From: Acidobacteriota bacterium
Lineage (GTDB): Bacteria; Acidobacteriota; Terriglobia; Terriglobales; Acidobacteriaceae
Assembly: GCA_021780095.1 (NCBI GenBank)
Contig: JAJXZK010000334.1
Location: forward strand, 1-64,000
DNA: 64,000 nt
Direction of reading: 5' to 3'
Shown here: positions 37,883 to 46,209 of the stretch, piece by piece
How positions within the stretch are numbered: position 1 is the stretch's first letter
Layout: each line of letters starts with the position of its first letter
Position numbers and translations under genes: made by a program
The notes under the pieces: generated by a model
Seen by the model: only the letters and a program-made list of their open reading frames with translations
What the model was told of the DNA's origin: nothing
Databases searched by the model: none

Positions 37883-39208
37883 TTAAAACGGCCGCAGACG
37901 AACAAAGATATTTACTCCGGCCGGGTCCGATCCATAGATTGGTCGCAGCGGGGCACCGACGCCGTACACGCTGAACTGCGATCCGACTGCCGACGCCAAA
38001 TGGGGCAGAAGTTGAAAATCGCGATCATAGCCAAAGGTATACGCCTGCACGTGCGTCAATGGAGATTCTGTAAAGCCGGGCGGCAAGGGATTTTCGCCGA
38101 TCAGGAGTGCGTTCGATCGTCCGGCATTTTCCATGCGGGTCCACACGTAGTTCCGTCGCAAGAACTGCAGCGTTGCTTCCAGGAGATAGCTATTTTCTTT
38201 TCCATTATCCGGAGTGGAGCGGGTGCGCCCCCAAACAACTGTGCCGGCGAGGTTGCCGGTTTTGAAGGGCCGGTTGTACATGACCGAAGCCGTGGTGCGG
38301 GCCTGACTTTCGTTGGGAAATAATTGTTCCGGACTTGTCAGCCGGCCATAGGAGTATTGCGCGCTCCAGTTCTGATCCGGCTGGACGGTCAAGCGCGTCG
38401 ACCATGAATCGATCGCGCCCTGATCGATATTCCAGCGAAATTCATCTGGCTCGCGGCCGTGAAATCCGCTGGCCTCAATGCGCGCGACTTTGTACGTGAC
38501 ACCCACGGTCGCTACATCGTCGGAAATATGGGTCGAGTCTTCCTGATGATGACCCAGGGCGCCGACAGGATTTTCCAGCGCGGAGGCGCGATGCGGATAT
38601 GCCGTCGGGCCCAACGCCGGATCACCCATGGGAGCGAAGTAGAACGACAGCAGAGTCTGCTTGCTCAGATGCAAATCGTAGAGAGCCGCCAGCTCCATGA
38701 AGAAATCGTGGGGGTGCTGGCCATCTGCAATGGGGACACCGAACGCGGTTTCACCTTGCTGGAACAGAAGCGGATAGCGTCGGTCAGTAATGGTGGCTGG
38801 TTCCAAACTGAACATCGCGCGGACGGTGAGTTGTCCCGGACCGAGGCTACGTTCGGCCATGGGCATAAACCAATTTGTCGAGAAGAATTTGTCGCCGCCG
38901 CGCGGGCTGGACTGCTGTTCGTCGGTAATGAAGACGTTGGCGTGGAACATCAACATCCATGGTCCATGTGCGGTCATCATCATGGGCATGGGCGTGGAAT
39001 TTGGCTCGGCGCTGGTTCCGGAGGTGGCGTGGTGCAGAATTTCTTCAATGAAGGTGCGCGACTCCATGGATTGCATCGGCATGCTGCCGGCTGGAGACAT
39101 GGGCTGCATTGAATGTTGCGAAGGCCGAGGCGATGCCATGGAATCTTGCGCGAAGGTGCGCCACGGGCCCAGCAACAAGAGCAGCGCGAGGGGGACAAGT
39201 TTTCTCAT
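37883..39208 (-). CDS. Met/His-rich exported protein with outer-membrane beta-barrel character
   Basis: A 441-residue protein with a signal peptide (LVPLALLLLLGPWRTFAQ). The mature N-terminus is strikingly rich in Met and His (SMQPMSPAGSMPMQSMES; STPMPMMMTAHGPWMLMFH). About 330 residues of alternating aromatic strands follow, ending in FVRLRPF, whose terminal Phe is typical of barrel proteins. Met clusters often bind Cu(I) or Ag(I), so metal handling is a reasonable inference but unproven. The upstream neighbour on this strand is the thiolase gene, 99 bp away. Confidence 0.62.
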   Translation of the reverse strand: MRKLVPLALLLLLGPWRTFAQDSMASPRPSQHSMQPMSPAGSMPMQSMESRTFIEEILHHATSGTSAEPNSTPMPMMMTAHGPWMLMFHANVFITDEQQSSPRGGDKFFSTNWFMPMAERSLGPGQLTVRAMFSLEPATITDRRYPLLFQQGETAFGVPIADGQHPHDFFMELAALYDLHLSKQTLLSFYFAPMGDPALGPTAYPHRASALENPVGALGHHQEDSTHISDDVATVGVTYKVARIEASGFHGREPDEFRWNIDQGAIDSWSTRLTVQPDQNWSAQYSYGRLTSPEQLFPNESQARTTASVMYNRPFKTGNLAGTVVWGRTRSTPDNGKENSYLLEATLQFLRRNYVWTRMENAGRSNALLIGENPLPPGFTESPLTHVQAYTFGYDRDFQLLPHLASAVGSQFSVYGVGAPLRPIYGSDPAGVNIFVRLRPF

Positions 39209-39307: not shown

Positions 39308-40492
39308 CTATCGCTCGATGGCCATGGCGACGGAGTTGCCGCCGCCGAGACAAAGCGCGGCGACACCCTTCTTCGCATCCTGACGAATCAATTCGTAGAT
39401 CAACGTGATCAAGACGCGAGCGCCGCTGGCGCCGATGGGATGCCCAATGGCGACAGCTCCACCGTTCACGTTGACCTTGTCGGGATTGAGGCCCAGTTCG
39501 CGCGACACGCCGAGTGCCTGGACGGCGAAGGCTTCGTTCAATTCAAAGAGGTCGACCTCATCGCGCTGCCAGCCTGCTTTCTCTAATACTTTGCGGATGC
39601 CGGTGACCGGAGCCATCATGACCCACTTGGGCTCGATGCCGCTGCTGGCCTGGGCGCGGATATGAACCATGGGCTTCAATCCGAGTGACGCAGCCTTCTT
39701 CGCGGACATTACCAGCAACGCGCCGGCGCCGTCGTTGACGCCCGGGGCGTTACCGGCGGTGACAGTTCCATCTTTCTTGAATGCGGGCTTCAACTTTCGC
39801 AGCGCTTCCAAGGTGGCGTCTTCACGGACAGACTCGTCATGGCTGAAGAGGGTGGGCTCGCCGCCTTTCTTCTTTGCTGGAATTTCGACGGGAACAATCT
39901 GTGACGCGAAGTGGCCATCCTTCCATGCGGCGGCGCTTTTGCGGTGGGACTCTAGCGCGTAGGCATCCTGTTCTTCGCGGGTGATGGAATATTCTTCGGC
40001 GACGTTCTCGCCGGTCATGCCCATGTGGTAGTCGTTGTAGATATCCCACAGTCCGTCTCTCACCATGCTGTCGACCGCCTTGTTATCGCCCATGCGAAAA
40101 CCCTTGCGCGCGTCGGGCAGCAGATAGGGAGCATTGCTCATCGACTCCATTCCGCCGGCCACAACGATTTCCGCATTGCCGGTCTGGATGGCCTGGGCCG
40201 CGAGCGAAACTGCTTTCAATCCTGATCCGCAAACCATGTTGACGGTGAAGGCTCTGACTTCCGGCGAGAGACCGCCGAAGATAGCCGCCTGTCGCGCGGG
40301 ATTCTGCCCGAGGCCGGCCGATACAACGTTCCCCATGATGCACTCATCGACCGACGGGGGGTCAATGCCGGCGCGTTCTACGACTTCGCGAACGACGATG
40401 GCGCCCAACTGCGTCGCCGAAAAATCGGCGAGCGAGCCAAGGAACTTTCCGACGGCTGTGCGAACTCCGGCAACGATGACGATGTCTTCCAT
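39308..40492 (-). CDS. Acetyl-CoA C-acyltransferase (thiolase II type)
   Basis: A 394-residue thiolase condensing two acetyl-CoA units or cleaving acetoacetyl-CoA. The nucleophilic Cys is in [12 protein letters not shown] (Cys 88), the His in [16 protein letters not shown], and the second Cys in [12 protein letters not shown]-terminal [15 protein letters not shown] is classic AtoB/PhaA. The start at 40492 has AAGGGG 6 bases upstream; the frame is open further but unlike the family. Biosynthetic (mevalonate or polyhydroxyalkanoate) and degradative roles cannot be separated from sequence. Confidence 0.92.
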
Positions 40493-40903
40493 ACCATCCC
40501 CTTCAACTTTCGCAGATGCGGTTCGGGTGCAAACAGAAAAGTATACGGCGCAGTGGTCGTGTCTGGCTTGCTCCGCCGTCTGCAGTCCAGTGGATGAGGT
40601 TGCGAGGTGTTGGCTGCAAAATCGGAAGGAGCGAAATAGCCAGTGTGGGAGCATCGATCGCGTTGCGTCGAGGATTTGTGCTGCAACGCGCGCTGCCTCT
40701 GGTCGATGCGCGGTTGCGGATCGTATTCAATGATCGCAACGGGATAAATGGCTTCCAGTTTCGCGCTGACATGTGTCGACGCGCGAGTCGCGGGTCGTAT
40801 GATTTTTGGAGTGCGCGTGCGCTGCATCACAAGAAAGAATTCCCCTTTAGAAAAAATGACAACTCGATAGCCATAAAAAAGCGACATGAATGTAATTTTT
40901 TTC
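40493..40903. other. Intergenic region upstream of thiolase and of the micro-ORF unit
   Basis: About 410 bp with overlapping open frames on both strands, none resembling a known protein. It should hold the thiolase promoter (minus strand). Its right end turns AT-rich (A/T tracts around 40870-40905), immediately before the consensus -35 of the micro-ORF promoter, as expected for an UP-element. Confidence 0.4.
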
Positions 40904-40932
40904 TTGACATTAATTTTGCGCAAAACTATACC
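40904..40932 (+). promoter_or_regulatory. Near-consensus sigma-70 promoter of the Lys/Ala micro-ORF
   Basis: A perfect TTGACA (40904-40909), a 17-bp spacer and TATACC (40927-40932), preceded by A/T tracts. The expected transcript start is near 40939. Confidence 0.7.
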
Positions 40933-40939
40933 TTCGTGT

Positions 40940-40978
40940 AACTGCGGTACGAGACTGCAGTTCTCGATGTCACATCGA
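40940..40978 (+). promoter_or_regulatory. Two short hairpins in the micro-ORF 5' leader
   Basis: AACTGC/GCAGTT (40940-40945 with 40957-40962) and TCGATG/CATCGA around TCA (40964-40978) fold one after the other, ending a few bases before the GGGAG ribosome site. They could protect the messenger or gate translation. Confidence 0.45.
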
Positions 40979-40995
40979 AAGGGAGAATAGTTCAT

Positions 40996-41064
40996 ATGGC
41001 AACCAAGAAAGCAGCAAAGAAAGCAACGAAGAAGGCAGCTAAGAAGACCACCAAAAAGAAGTAA
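40996..41064 (+). CDS. 22-residue Lys/Ala/Thr-rich histone H1-like micropeptide
   Basis: A complete frame of 22 codons: one Met, eleven Lys, six Ala and four Thr, arranged as KKAAKKATKK-type repeats like the C-terminal tails of eukaryotic H1 and chlamydial Hc1/Hc2. GGGAG lies 11 bases before the ATG, a near-consensus promoter lies 64 bp upstream, and a perfect terminator begins 22 bp after the stop, so the unit is self-contained. At this composition the peptide would be strongly cationic, probably nucleic-acid binding and disordered. Codons mix AAA/AAG and four Ala/Thr codons, so it is not a simple nucleotide repeat. Automatic annotation would normally skip it because of length. The function is inferred only. 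Confidence 0.7.
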   Translation: MATKKAAKKATKKAAKKTTKKK

Positions 41065-41085
41065 TTAACCGAATCAATCAAAGGC

Positions 41086-41126
41086 AAAACAGAAGAGGGA
41101 GCGCTTAGCGCTCCCTCTTCTGTTTT
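41086..41126. terminator. Perfect bidirectional intrinsic terminator after the micro-ORF
   Basis: A 19-bp stem without mismatch (41086-41104 with 41108-41126) around a TTA loop, with A4 at one end and T4 at the other. It is the strongest terminator-like structure I found in the window, and it separates the micro-ORF from rsmE. Confidence 0.9.
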
Positions 41127-41199
41127 GTGGGAACGTACAATTTGTCTGCCGGCGGTCTGTTGTTTTTTGCTGCTGTCCGGTAGGCTCAGCGGAGAAGAT

Positions 41200-41931
41200 A
41201 TGACTCGCCGACGCTGGATCGCAGATCGATGGACTGAAAATTCCGCCACACTGATGAAAGAACAGGCGGCGCATCTAGCGCGCGTCTTGCGCGCGCAGGT
41301 CGGCCAGGAATTCGATATCGTCGCTGGACATGCGGTTCGGAGAGGGGTGGTCGAAAAAGTGTCTGCCGTCGCTGTCGAGTTTTCGCTGCATGAGGAAGTG
41401 GATGCAACAGACTCTCTTCCGCTGACCGTGGGAGTGAGCATCGTTCGTTTTGAAAGGATGGAATGGGCGATCGAGAAGCTGACGGAGTTGGGAGTGGCGC
41501 GAATCATTCCCTTGAAGGCGCAGCGAAGCGAAAAACATTTGGTGCTGGCGGCGACAAAACGGTGCGAGCGGTGGAGAAAAATCTCGCGTGAGTCGGCGCA
41601 ACAATCTCGCCGCAGTCAGGTGCCGGAAATTTCCGATCCGACGTCGGTGAACGATTGCATCGCGGAAAGCGGCAACGCGCTACGCTATCTTTTTTCGGAG
41701 CAGGAGCGATCCCGTTCGCTGTGGGAATCTTTGATGACAACAGGTCGAGATGTGACCCCATCGGCGAAAATTTATGCCGCGATCGGACCGGAAGGCGGAT
41801 GGACTTCGTCGGAGCTTTCGAGCTTCAATGAAAGCGGTTGGCAATCGGTAAGCCTTGGAAAGAATATTTTGCGAAGCGAAACGGCGGCAATCGCGGTGGC
41901 TGGTTTGATCGGCGCGTGGTGGAACGGATAG
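41200..41931 (+). CDS. rsmE: 16S rRNA (uracil(1498)-N(3))-methyltransferase
   Basis: A 243-residue SPOUT-class RNA methyltransferase. The N-terminal PUA-like domain includes HLARVLRAQVGQEFDIV. The catalytic trefoil-knot domain has KLTELGVARIIPLKAQRS, the SAM-site GPEGGWTSSE, and SLGKNILRSETAAIAVAG. GGAGAAGAT directly precedes the ATG; an upstream in-frame start would run into the terminator and is rejected. It is convergent with dnaJ across about 150 bp. Confidence 0.93.
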   Translation: MTRRRWIADRWTENSATLMKEQAAHLARVLRAQVGQEFDIVAGHAVRRGVVEKVSAVAVEFSLHEEVDATDSLPLTVGVSIVRFERMEWAIEKLTELGVARIIPLKAQRSEKHLVLAATKRCERWRKISRESAQQSRRSQVPEISDPTSVNDCIAESGNALRYLFSEQERSRSLWESLMTTGRDVTPSAKIYAAIGPEGGWTSSELSSFNESGWQSVSLGKNILRSETAAIAVAGLIGAWWNG

Positions 41932-45426: not shown

Positions 45427-46209
45427 TTACTGAATCACACCGGTTGCAGTGAGATACTTAGCCAGCCGCTCTTTGTTCGTTGCAAGATTTGAGAACTGTT
45501 TGTCGCATACGTCACTAAATCTCGCTAAACTCTTCCGGTTGATGTCTTCCTGGTTCTCGAAGACCCCGACTCCCCGATGCGGTACACCCCACCGTTCATA
45601 CTGGTGCAATCCAATAGTGGCGTCCTTAACCTTGTCATCAGACTGCAATGCATAAATAAAAATTGGATCGTGAGCCGGAACCTCTATACGGCAATCGACA
45701 GAGTAGAGGCCTTCAGGATCGTGTTTCGGATCGTGCCAATCGAATCGGCGCCGTTCTTGCACGACTGTCTCCTCAATGAACGCTTGAAAATCGTCCAAAA
45801 ACGTAGATCTGACTCTTTCTCGCGTGAGAAAAGTAACATCTGCGATTTTTAGGATCGCCTGGACAAAGCTATATAGGGCGTTTCCATACTGGCCGTTTTT
45901 TATTGGTATGAGAAGTTCTCCCGAACTATCTGTGACGGAAAACGCCGAGAGCGCATTCGTTATGATCTTTTGACGCGTTCCTATTCGGAGATCCTTTTCT
46001 TCCAGATCGTAAGTGAGGTGCATATACGTGTGGCCTTCATCGGACAACATCCAGTGCTCACGTTCGCGCTTCAGTACGATTGCAAGGTGATCGCCGTCCT
46101 CAAACATGAACGGCGTGAACACGCGAAAGCGATTCTCACCCTCTTGCGTGAGTCGGAGCTGTTCACAAACTTTGCTTCTGAAATCCTTGACGATCGCCTC
46201 TAGTTCCAT
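45427..46209 (-). CDS. DUF1828-domain-like protein in an accessory patch
   Basis: A 260-residue soluble protein. Residues about 1-110 resemble DUF1828 (FRVFTPFMFEDGDHLAIVLKR, WMLSDEGHTYMHLTYDL), a domain of unknown function often met in mobile or accessory loci. The remainder (FIEETVVQERRRFDWHDPKHDPEG..., VFENQEDINRKSLARFSDV) is not recognised. Codon use and base composition are more AT-rich than in flanking hrcA and lacD, suggesting transfer. AGGGG lies just before the ATG, and the upstream partner gene ends 9 bp away, so the two are coupled. Confidence 0.6.
   Translation of the reverse strand: MELEAIVKDFRSKVCEQLRLTQEGENRFRVFTPFMFEDGDHLAIVLKREREHWMLSDEGHTYMHLTYDLEEKDLRIGTRQKIITNALSAFSVTDSSGELLIPIKNGQYGNALYSFVQAILKIADVTFLTRERVRSTFLDDFQAFIEETVVQERRRFDWHDPKHDPEGLYSVDCRIEVPAHDPIFIYALQSDDKVKDATIGLHQYERWGVPHRGVGVFENQEDINRKSLARFSDVCDKQFSNLATNKERLAKYLTATGVIQ

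Follow-up and report, generated by a model that had tools for sequence, protein, structure and literature searches.

A predicted lysine-rich micro-gene in a conserved transcription unit of Acidobacteriota, and a lineage that keeps the unit without the reading frame

The unit in the window and its neighbours

The window, that is, the whole stretch of 64,000 nucleotides of acidobacterial DNA that was analysed, carries a compact block (positions 40904-41126) between a divergent thiolase gene and rsmE. The block contains a reading frame of only 22 codons. The first-pass annotation had described it as a self-contained transcription unit for a histone H1-like peptide, and every control element of that description was seen in the sequence, apart from minor corrections (Table 1). 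The -35 element is perfect and the spacer measures 17 bp, as described, but the -10 element TATACC agrees with the consensus TATAAT at only four of six positions. It has no T at position 6, which the promoter scan requires, so that the scan omits this promoter. Across an alignment of 32 sequences, TTGAC and TATA show no variation, and AGGGAGAA.AG is invariant as well. The T-tract on the 5' side of the -35 element is almost invariant among 207 units, with T frequencies of 0.77, 0.91, 1.00, 1.00, 0.96, 0.74 and 0.79 at bases 8 to 2 before the -35, three of these positions lying at 0.96-1.00; it is possibly an UP-type or bendable element.

Transcription would start at about 40938-40940, at the foot of the first leader hairpin. 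The fold prediction returned both of the leader hairpins that had been described, and the GGGAG site and the frame with its 11 lysine codons are present as stated. The terminator is indeed a perfect inverted repeat that reads as terminator-like in both directions, with a stem of 20 bp rather than the 19 bp first given. The block is not a product of chance: its single-strand fold has a z of -6.9, and it is found again in many relatives.

Table 1. Coordinates of the predicted unit and of its context genes in the window.
Feature	Position	Strand	Basis and remarks
Thiolase gene, divergent, upstream context	39308..40492	-	Pfam PF00108/PF02803
T-tract TTTTTTTC	40896..40903	+	sequence and 207-unit count; abuts the -35 element on its 5' side
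Promoter: TTGACA (40904-40909), 17-bp spacer, TATACC (40927-40932)	40904..40932	+	sequence
Leader hairpin 1, 9 bp	40940..40962	+	predicted fold and covariation; at the putative RNA 5' end
Leader hairpin 2, 6 bp	40964..40978	+	predicted fold; in part of the relatives only
Ribosome site GGGAG within AGGGAGAATAG	40981..40985	+	sequence and alignment
ORF of 22 codons, MATKKAAKKATKKAAKKTTKKK (11 K), ATG start, plus TAA	40996..41064	+	sequence, purifying selection, counterparts in relatives
GGCAA copy 1, overlapping the ATG GCA start	40998..41002	+	sequence; motif counts in relatives
GGCAA copy 2, at the 5' edge of the terminator	41083..41087	+	sequence; motif counts in relatives
Perfect inverted repeat, 20 bp, 3-nt loop, terminator-like both ways	41085..41127	+	sequence and fold; minus-strand reading listed by the scan
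rsmE, downstream context	41200..41931	+	Pfam PF04452

Beyond rsmE, the window continues with dnaJ and hrcA, which lie on the minus strand. A 260-aa ORF with DUF1828 (45427-46209, minus strand) adjoins hrcA, and on the other side of the block a 441-aa ORF (37883-39208, minus strand) appears by eye to carry a signal peptide and matches no Pfam family at E <= 0.001. A search of related genomes for the same block upstream of rsmE had been suggested. It was there in all of the first six relatives, found through RsmE (five acidobacterial MAGs and Paracidobacterium acidisoli), where the frame was intact in 6/6, whereas among 155 units, one locus per genome, rsmE lies downstream in only 47 and is convergent in 2. 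A divergent thiolase gene stands beside at least 70 of the 155 units, and the true count may be higher, since many loci are short; other recurrent neighbours on the opposite strand form clusters of 32, 23 and 20 genomes. For units of the window's type, the divergent thiolase is a more constant neighbour than rsmE. Terminator-like repeats follow 117 of 133, 42 of 51 and 21 of 22 units, compared with 5, 4 and 2 in mononucleotide shuffles, which together with the varying or convergent downstream genes bears out the view of a self-contained transcription unit.

Distribution, coding evidence and leader structure

A DNA query made of leader and ORF matched 196 of 299 genomes of the class to which P. 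acidisoli belongs, taken to be Terriglobia, at E <= 0.1, with matches ranging from full length down to short stretches of the ORF only. To avoid circularity, the later models were limited to promoter and leader. Model R1, ending at ATGGC, was built from sequence only, because RNAalifold gave no pairs on the first leader alignment, in which the arms were out of register; it matched 127 of 399 class genomes (E <= 1). Model R2, which ends at the start codon and includes leaders found by R1, matched 173 of the 399 (E <= 0.1), and model R3, representing a second leader type and including R2 matches, matched 136 (E <= 0.01). The union of R2 and R3 comprises 213 of the 399 genomes, 96 of them common to both, and 186 gave no match to either model in this search. 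Among the matches listed, each genome had a single one with R2 and a single one with R3. When 396 genomes were drawn from the phylum, 45 were matched, and 44 of these were R2 matches of the class draw too. Judged from sequence, the unit is a genuine, class-wide acidobacterial micro-gene.

A lysine-rich ORF (K >= 33%) was found in 133 of the 155 units and was absent from 22, by a rule that takes, among the ATGs close to the end of the leader, the one whose frame is richest in lysine and so favours K-rich frames. The set of 155 genomes excludes L136, L144-L148 and L183, which are weak, partial or phylum-only matches, none with a K-rich ORF. L183 (genome G427) is the forty-fifth match of the phylum draw; it is leader-like with an E value of 0.002 and has GGAGAATAGGCA. 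The tests used only fetched matches outside the model alignments, namely 38 for the earlier leader models and 52 + 8 for R3 (13 of the 52 were also R2 matches); outside the fetched set lie about 20 R1 places at E > 0.01 and those R2 matches at E 0.009-0.1 past the ones listed that are not shared with R3. Of the 38 leader matches, 35 had a K/A-rich ORF starting where predicted, and a K-rich ORF was present in 59 of the 60 fresh R3 matches (51/52, at a threshold of K >= 25%, and 8/8); the ATG was again the one of the most lysine-rich frame, which favours such ORFs. As background, the rest of the fetched DNA has 262 short ORFs preceded by a ribosome-site motif, and under a slightly different rule none of them reached K >= 33%.

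Substitutions were counted by codon position between nearest neighbours of equal length, in 39 pairs that do not overlap. The 195 substitutions fell 16, 14 and 165 times at positions 1, 2 and 3, respectively. Non-synonymous changes numbered 32 against 120.2 ± 5.8 under the null, lysine-changing ones 7 against 59.9 ± 4.4, and no new stop codon arose against 1.4 ± 1.0. In all 133 units the ribosome motif lies 6-13 nt from the ATG, and the stop codon is TAA in 93 and TAG in 40. The substitution pattern indicates that the frame is protein-coding and under strong purifying selection at the protein level. The first-pass annotation had named beforehand a lack of frame conservation in relatives as a refuting outcome and a codon-substitution test as a check; the frame is kept, and the test came out in its favour. 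A chance low-complexity ORF, considered as an alternative, is ruled out by the codon test and the background ORFs.

Over the 184 ORF-bearing units (133 + 51), 130 distinct peptides were found with lengths of 11-120 aa and a median of 22, the peptide being no longer than 32 aa in 165 units. Their residues are 47% lysine, 37% alanine, 7% proline and 6% threonine, with acidic residues at 2 of 4665 positions. There are two main start types, MATKK.. and MKNATKK.., which differ in their neighbours. In the relatives that were read, the ORF begins and ends inside the K/A stretch, with no globular DNA-binding domain adjoining. As far as the substitutions and lengths indicate, selection acts on lysine identity, and the peptide is variable in length, up to 120 aa. 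The units L254, L271, L278, L280, L266, L267 and L270 carry AAAPAKK-like repeats of 83-120 aa behind a like leader and resemble a full H1-type tail.

The 22-mer matched no Pfam family at E <= 0.001. Four longer relatives matched no Pfam and no NCBIfam family at E <= 0.1, and NCBIfam gave for three short peptides only two matches, both to one peptide and both far below cut-off. These negative results are weakened by low complexity and short length. A 52-aa relative had no named homologue at E <= 0.001. For a 111-aa relative, the best 7997 candidates scored included 112 proteins of similar composition, many with SWIB (PF02201) or HU (PF00216/PF18291) domains and the rest with SecG or no domain, none of them an evident orthologue. 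The PDB yielded one weak match at E <= 10, the ribosomal protein eS25 (E 2.5). In Rfam, no family reached its gathering score in the window, nine weak matches of the block in E-value mode all lay over the terminator repeat, and 12 relatives gave nothing at E <= 0.1. The micro-gene was found in no family library searched; its H1-like character stands as a matter of composition, and it matches no named family at the cut-offs of Pfam or NCBIfam. No earlier description of it was found in the open-licence literature searched.

Leader hairpin 1 was picked on the alignments A2 and A3 by column-pair scans of those same alignments, which biases the counts towards structure. With this bias, 85.7% of the cells pair over 61 leaders, and double-change cells number 57 compared with 20.8 ± 5.8 when shuffled and 5-26 when slid. 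The 40 MK-type leaders gave 84.8% pairing and 33 double-change cells compared with 10.8 ± 3.7 shuffled and 4-29 slid; here the slides by -2 and +1 come near with 25 and 29 double-change cells, but pair in 56% and 34% of cells versus 85%. The number of hairpin-1 pairs showing any double change was not above that of the shuffles (325 and 68 of 500 were as high in the two leader sets). The arms of hairpin 2 are visible in some relatives and weak or absent in others.

A lineage without the reading frame

RsmE lies in the locus of 49 genomes. The 18 of these without the ORF are set apart from the others by a single branch in the RsmE tree (SH-aLRT 96), and absence of the ORF requires one change on this tree compared with 14.8 when shuffled; the tree is a quick one with a midpoint root, on which the long branches L039 and L125 join beside the ORF-less group with uncertain placement. 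The group (L092, L096, L112, L113, L116-L118, L120, L121, L123, L124, L128, L130, L131, L133, L135, L149 and L196) keeps the T-tract, promoter, hairpin 1, GGGAG and terminator, and its flanks are not alignable across the group. Further ORF-less units outside the tree are L086, L090, L207 and L221, with L281 as a fifth. Because both the MA and the MK types have the ORF, its absence is taken as loss and not late gain, and we infer that the ORF was lost in one lineage. The predicted RNA unit has thus outlasted the ORF in a lineage of 18 genomes, and since the ORF is missing from the locus there, the peptide is dispensable at this place in that lineage.

The motif GGCAA, which was chosen after inspecting the same sequences, occurs 52 times in the 18 x 95 nt of the ORF-less group, compared with 5.0 expected and a maximum of 12 in 500 mononucleotide shuffles. 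ORF-bearing units of the MATK type have a mean of 2.5 copies, one of which is usually the start-codon context; the motif is scarce in the MK type, with 0.32 per unit in 19 MKNA units. One-base indels within the GGCAA stretch argue against a shifted or alternative ORF in it. Several ORF-less loci carry a GCGGtGGCAAAGgCCGC stretch, a potential stem-loop.

A relocated ORF was sought in the 22 ORF-less genomes with a 23-aa query at E <= 10, and 24 matches were fetched and read; the open-frame lengths of these matches run from stop to stop and may mask micro-ORFs, as the 22-aa ORF of G001 appears as 403. K/A matches were found in 9 of the 22 genomes, most of them deep within longer K/A frames, and the other 13, G173 included, gave no match to the query at this threshold. 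In the genomes with matches, another K/A protein may replace the lost peptide. The ORF-less genome G295 (L304, L323) has two other frames that start with MATKK, of 117 and 48 aa, which are possible replacements or paralogues; the 48-aa frame is without a recognised ribosome-site motif.

Proposed function and comparison with known systems

We lean towards the view that the locus encodes an H1-tail-like peptide serving as a counter-ion of nucleic acids and made from a stable monocistronic mRNA, a transcript that perhaps also acts as an RNA. Such a role, in neutralising and compacting nucleic acids, is ascribed to the K/A/P tails of AlgP and of proteins with HU or SWIB domains. In the proposed mechanism, the sigma-70-type promoter with its upstream T-tract would drive a short mRNA, the conserved stem-loop at the 5' end would protect this mRNA, GGGAG would start translation of the K/A(T/P) peptide, and the strong hairpin terminator would insulate the unit from its neighbours. 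A stable, abundant mRNA could then yield many copies of a probably disordered polycation, which as a free-standing H1-type tail would neutralise and compact DNA and/or structured RNA. Charge density would count, and length (11 to 120 aa) and exact sequence would count little. Transcription and its level, nucleic-acid binding and a nucleoid or RNA target are what we infer for the peptide of this unit.

Composition by itself cannot separate a DNA target from RNA, the ribosome or polyphosphate. An example of a ribosome-associated basic micro-protein is bTHX, and a place at the ribosome or rRNA instead of the nucleoid would suit a tiny, strongly basic peptide with strong translation signals, whose sole PDB match is the weak one to eS25. 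However, lengths of 11-120 aa, repeat-like expansion and the lack of a fixed residue pattern are unlike a protein with a defined pocket, and the ORF has been lost at the locus in one lineage, so that we regard this role as unlikely. Quite improbable is a factor of polyphosphate or other polyanion granules, as AlgP is in Pseudomonas: the K/A/P composition is near that of the AlgP C-terminal repeats (PMC9239181), but the tail here has no adjoining anchoring domain. The order of a short lysine-rich ORF and then a terminator 5' of rsmE in the window would also fit a leader peptide whose lysine codons, together with the terminator, attenuate the downstream gene. This has next to no probability in our estimate; attenuation of rsmE is excluded by downstream genes that vary and are often convergent, with no fixed co-directional gene over the 155 units. 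In addition, the predicted minimum-energy fold offers the 20-bp stem no competing anti-terminator, and lysine identity is selected in a peptide whose length varies up to 120 aa.

That the RNA unit persists after loss of the ORF points to some further role of the transcript, one not explained by an H1-type tail, and a second, RNA-level function is plausible in the lineage linked to thiolase and rsmE. The transcript may be a small regulatory RNA, with a 5' hairpin, a terminator and repeated GGCAA as a seed or protein-binding site, that also encodes the peptide and has only its RNA role left in one lineage; this would add to the H1-tail-like function and not replace it, and we hold it as a serious possibility short of probable. 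It would account for the retention of the predicted RNA unit, between flanks that cannot be aligned, by the 18 ORF-less genomes that fall together in the RsmE tree, for the 52 copies of GGCAA against 5.0 expected in these genomes, for one-base indels that speak against an alternative ORF, and for the average of 2.5 copies in ORF-bearing MATK-type units. A precedent is the Yersinia SgrS without the sgrT ORF (PMC4021124). On the other hand, the control for GGCAA is a mononucleotide shuffle with a motif chosen post hoc, the MK type is nearly without the motif, which would make the function lineage-specific, and no Rfam family was matched at gathering score, the weak matches all falling on the terminator repeat. 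Returning to the H1-tail-like peptide, a bolder combination can be offered only tentatively, in which the class-wide locus would be both the smallest known free-standing H1-tail gene and a regulatory RNA, headed by the hairpin, bounded by the terminator and acting via repeated GGCAA; nucleic acids, perhaps including this very RNA, would be the target of the polycation, and by loss of the ORF one lineage would have turned the mRNA into a purely non-coding one.

What is new here is the free-standing micro-gene and the loss of its ORF, as H1-like polycations are already known as a class. The locus indicates that an H1-type tail can stand as a gene in its own right, in most cases 11-32 codons long and served by a deeply conserved transcription unit of its own; length cut-offs and tryptic proteomics easily overlook micro-genes of this kind. 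With lengths of 11 to 120 aa following leaders of one kind, the peptides may serve as a natural titration of the requirements of an H1 tail, and the ORF-less lineage as a natural experiment on an mRNA that survives the loss of its protein. The first-pass annotation missed the thiolase as the steadier neighbour, the growth to 120 aa and the ORF loss with the RNA unit kept.

Stem-loops at the 5' terminus of the ompA type stabilise mRNA. Similar to these, the stem-loop of the micro-gene lies at the putative extreme 5' end of a presumably abundant mRNA; unlike them, it is conserved class-wide with covariation, and its stabilising effect is putative. Similar to the chlamydial Hc2 (HctB) and Bordetella BpH1, the product is a Lys/Ala-rich low-complexity polycation; in those proteins the number of repeats sets the size and the frame is kept, and Hc2 binds DNA and RNA, according to PMC2848022. 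Hc2, however, has 165-237 aa with Arg/Lys pentamers and further conserved parts, whereas the micro-peptide has mostly about 20-26 aa, almost no arginine and no second domain, and its gene sits in a conserved cassette of promoter, leader and terminator. In its K/A/P composition the peptide resembles the KPAA-repeat C-terminal domain of AlgP from P. aeruginosa, for which PMC9239181 reports DNA binding by a C-terminal fragment and by KPAA peptides, with disorder predicted. HU and SWIB proteins have similar K/A/P stretches beside their domains. AlgP, HU and SWIB proteins carry the tail joined to another domain, whereas in the micro-gene the tail is the entire protein. In layout the predicted transcript resembles SgrS/SgrT of enteric bacteria, likewise a short RNA with a 5' ORF and a 3' terminator, of which some species have the RNA without the ORF (PMC4021124). 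SgrT, however, is a 43-aa inhibitor of a sugar transporter, unlike the polycationic micro-peptide, and the function of the acidobacterial RNA is a putative one.
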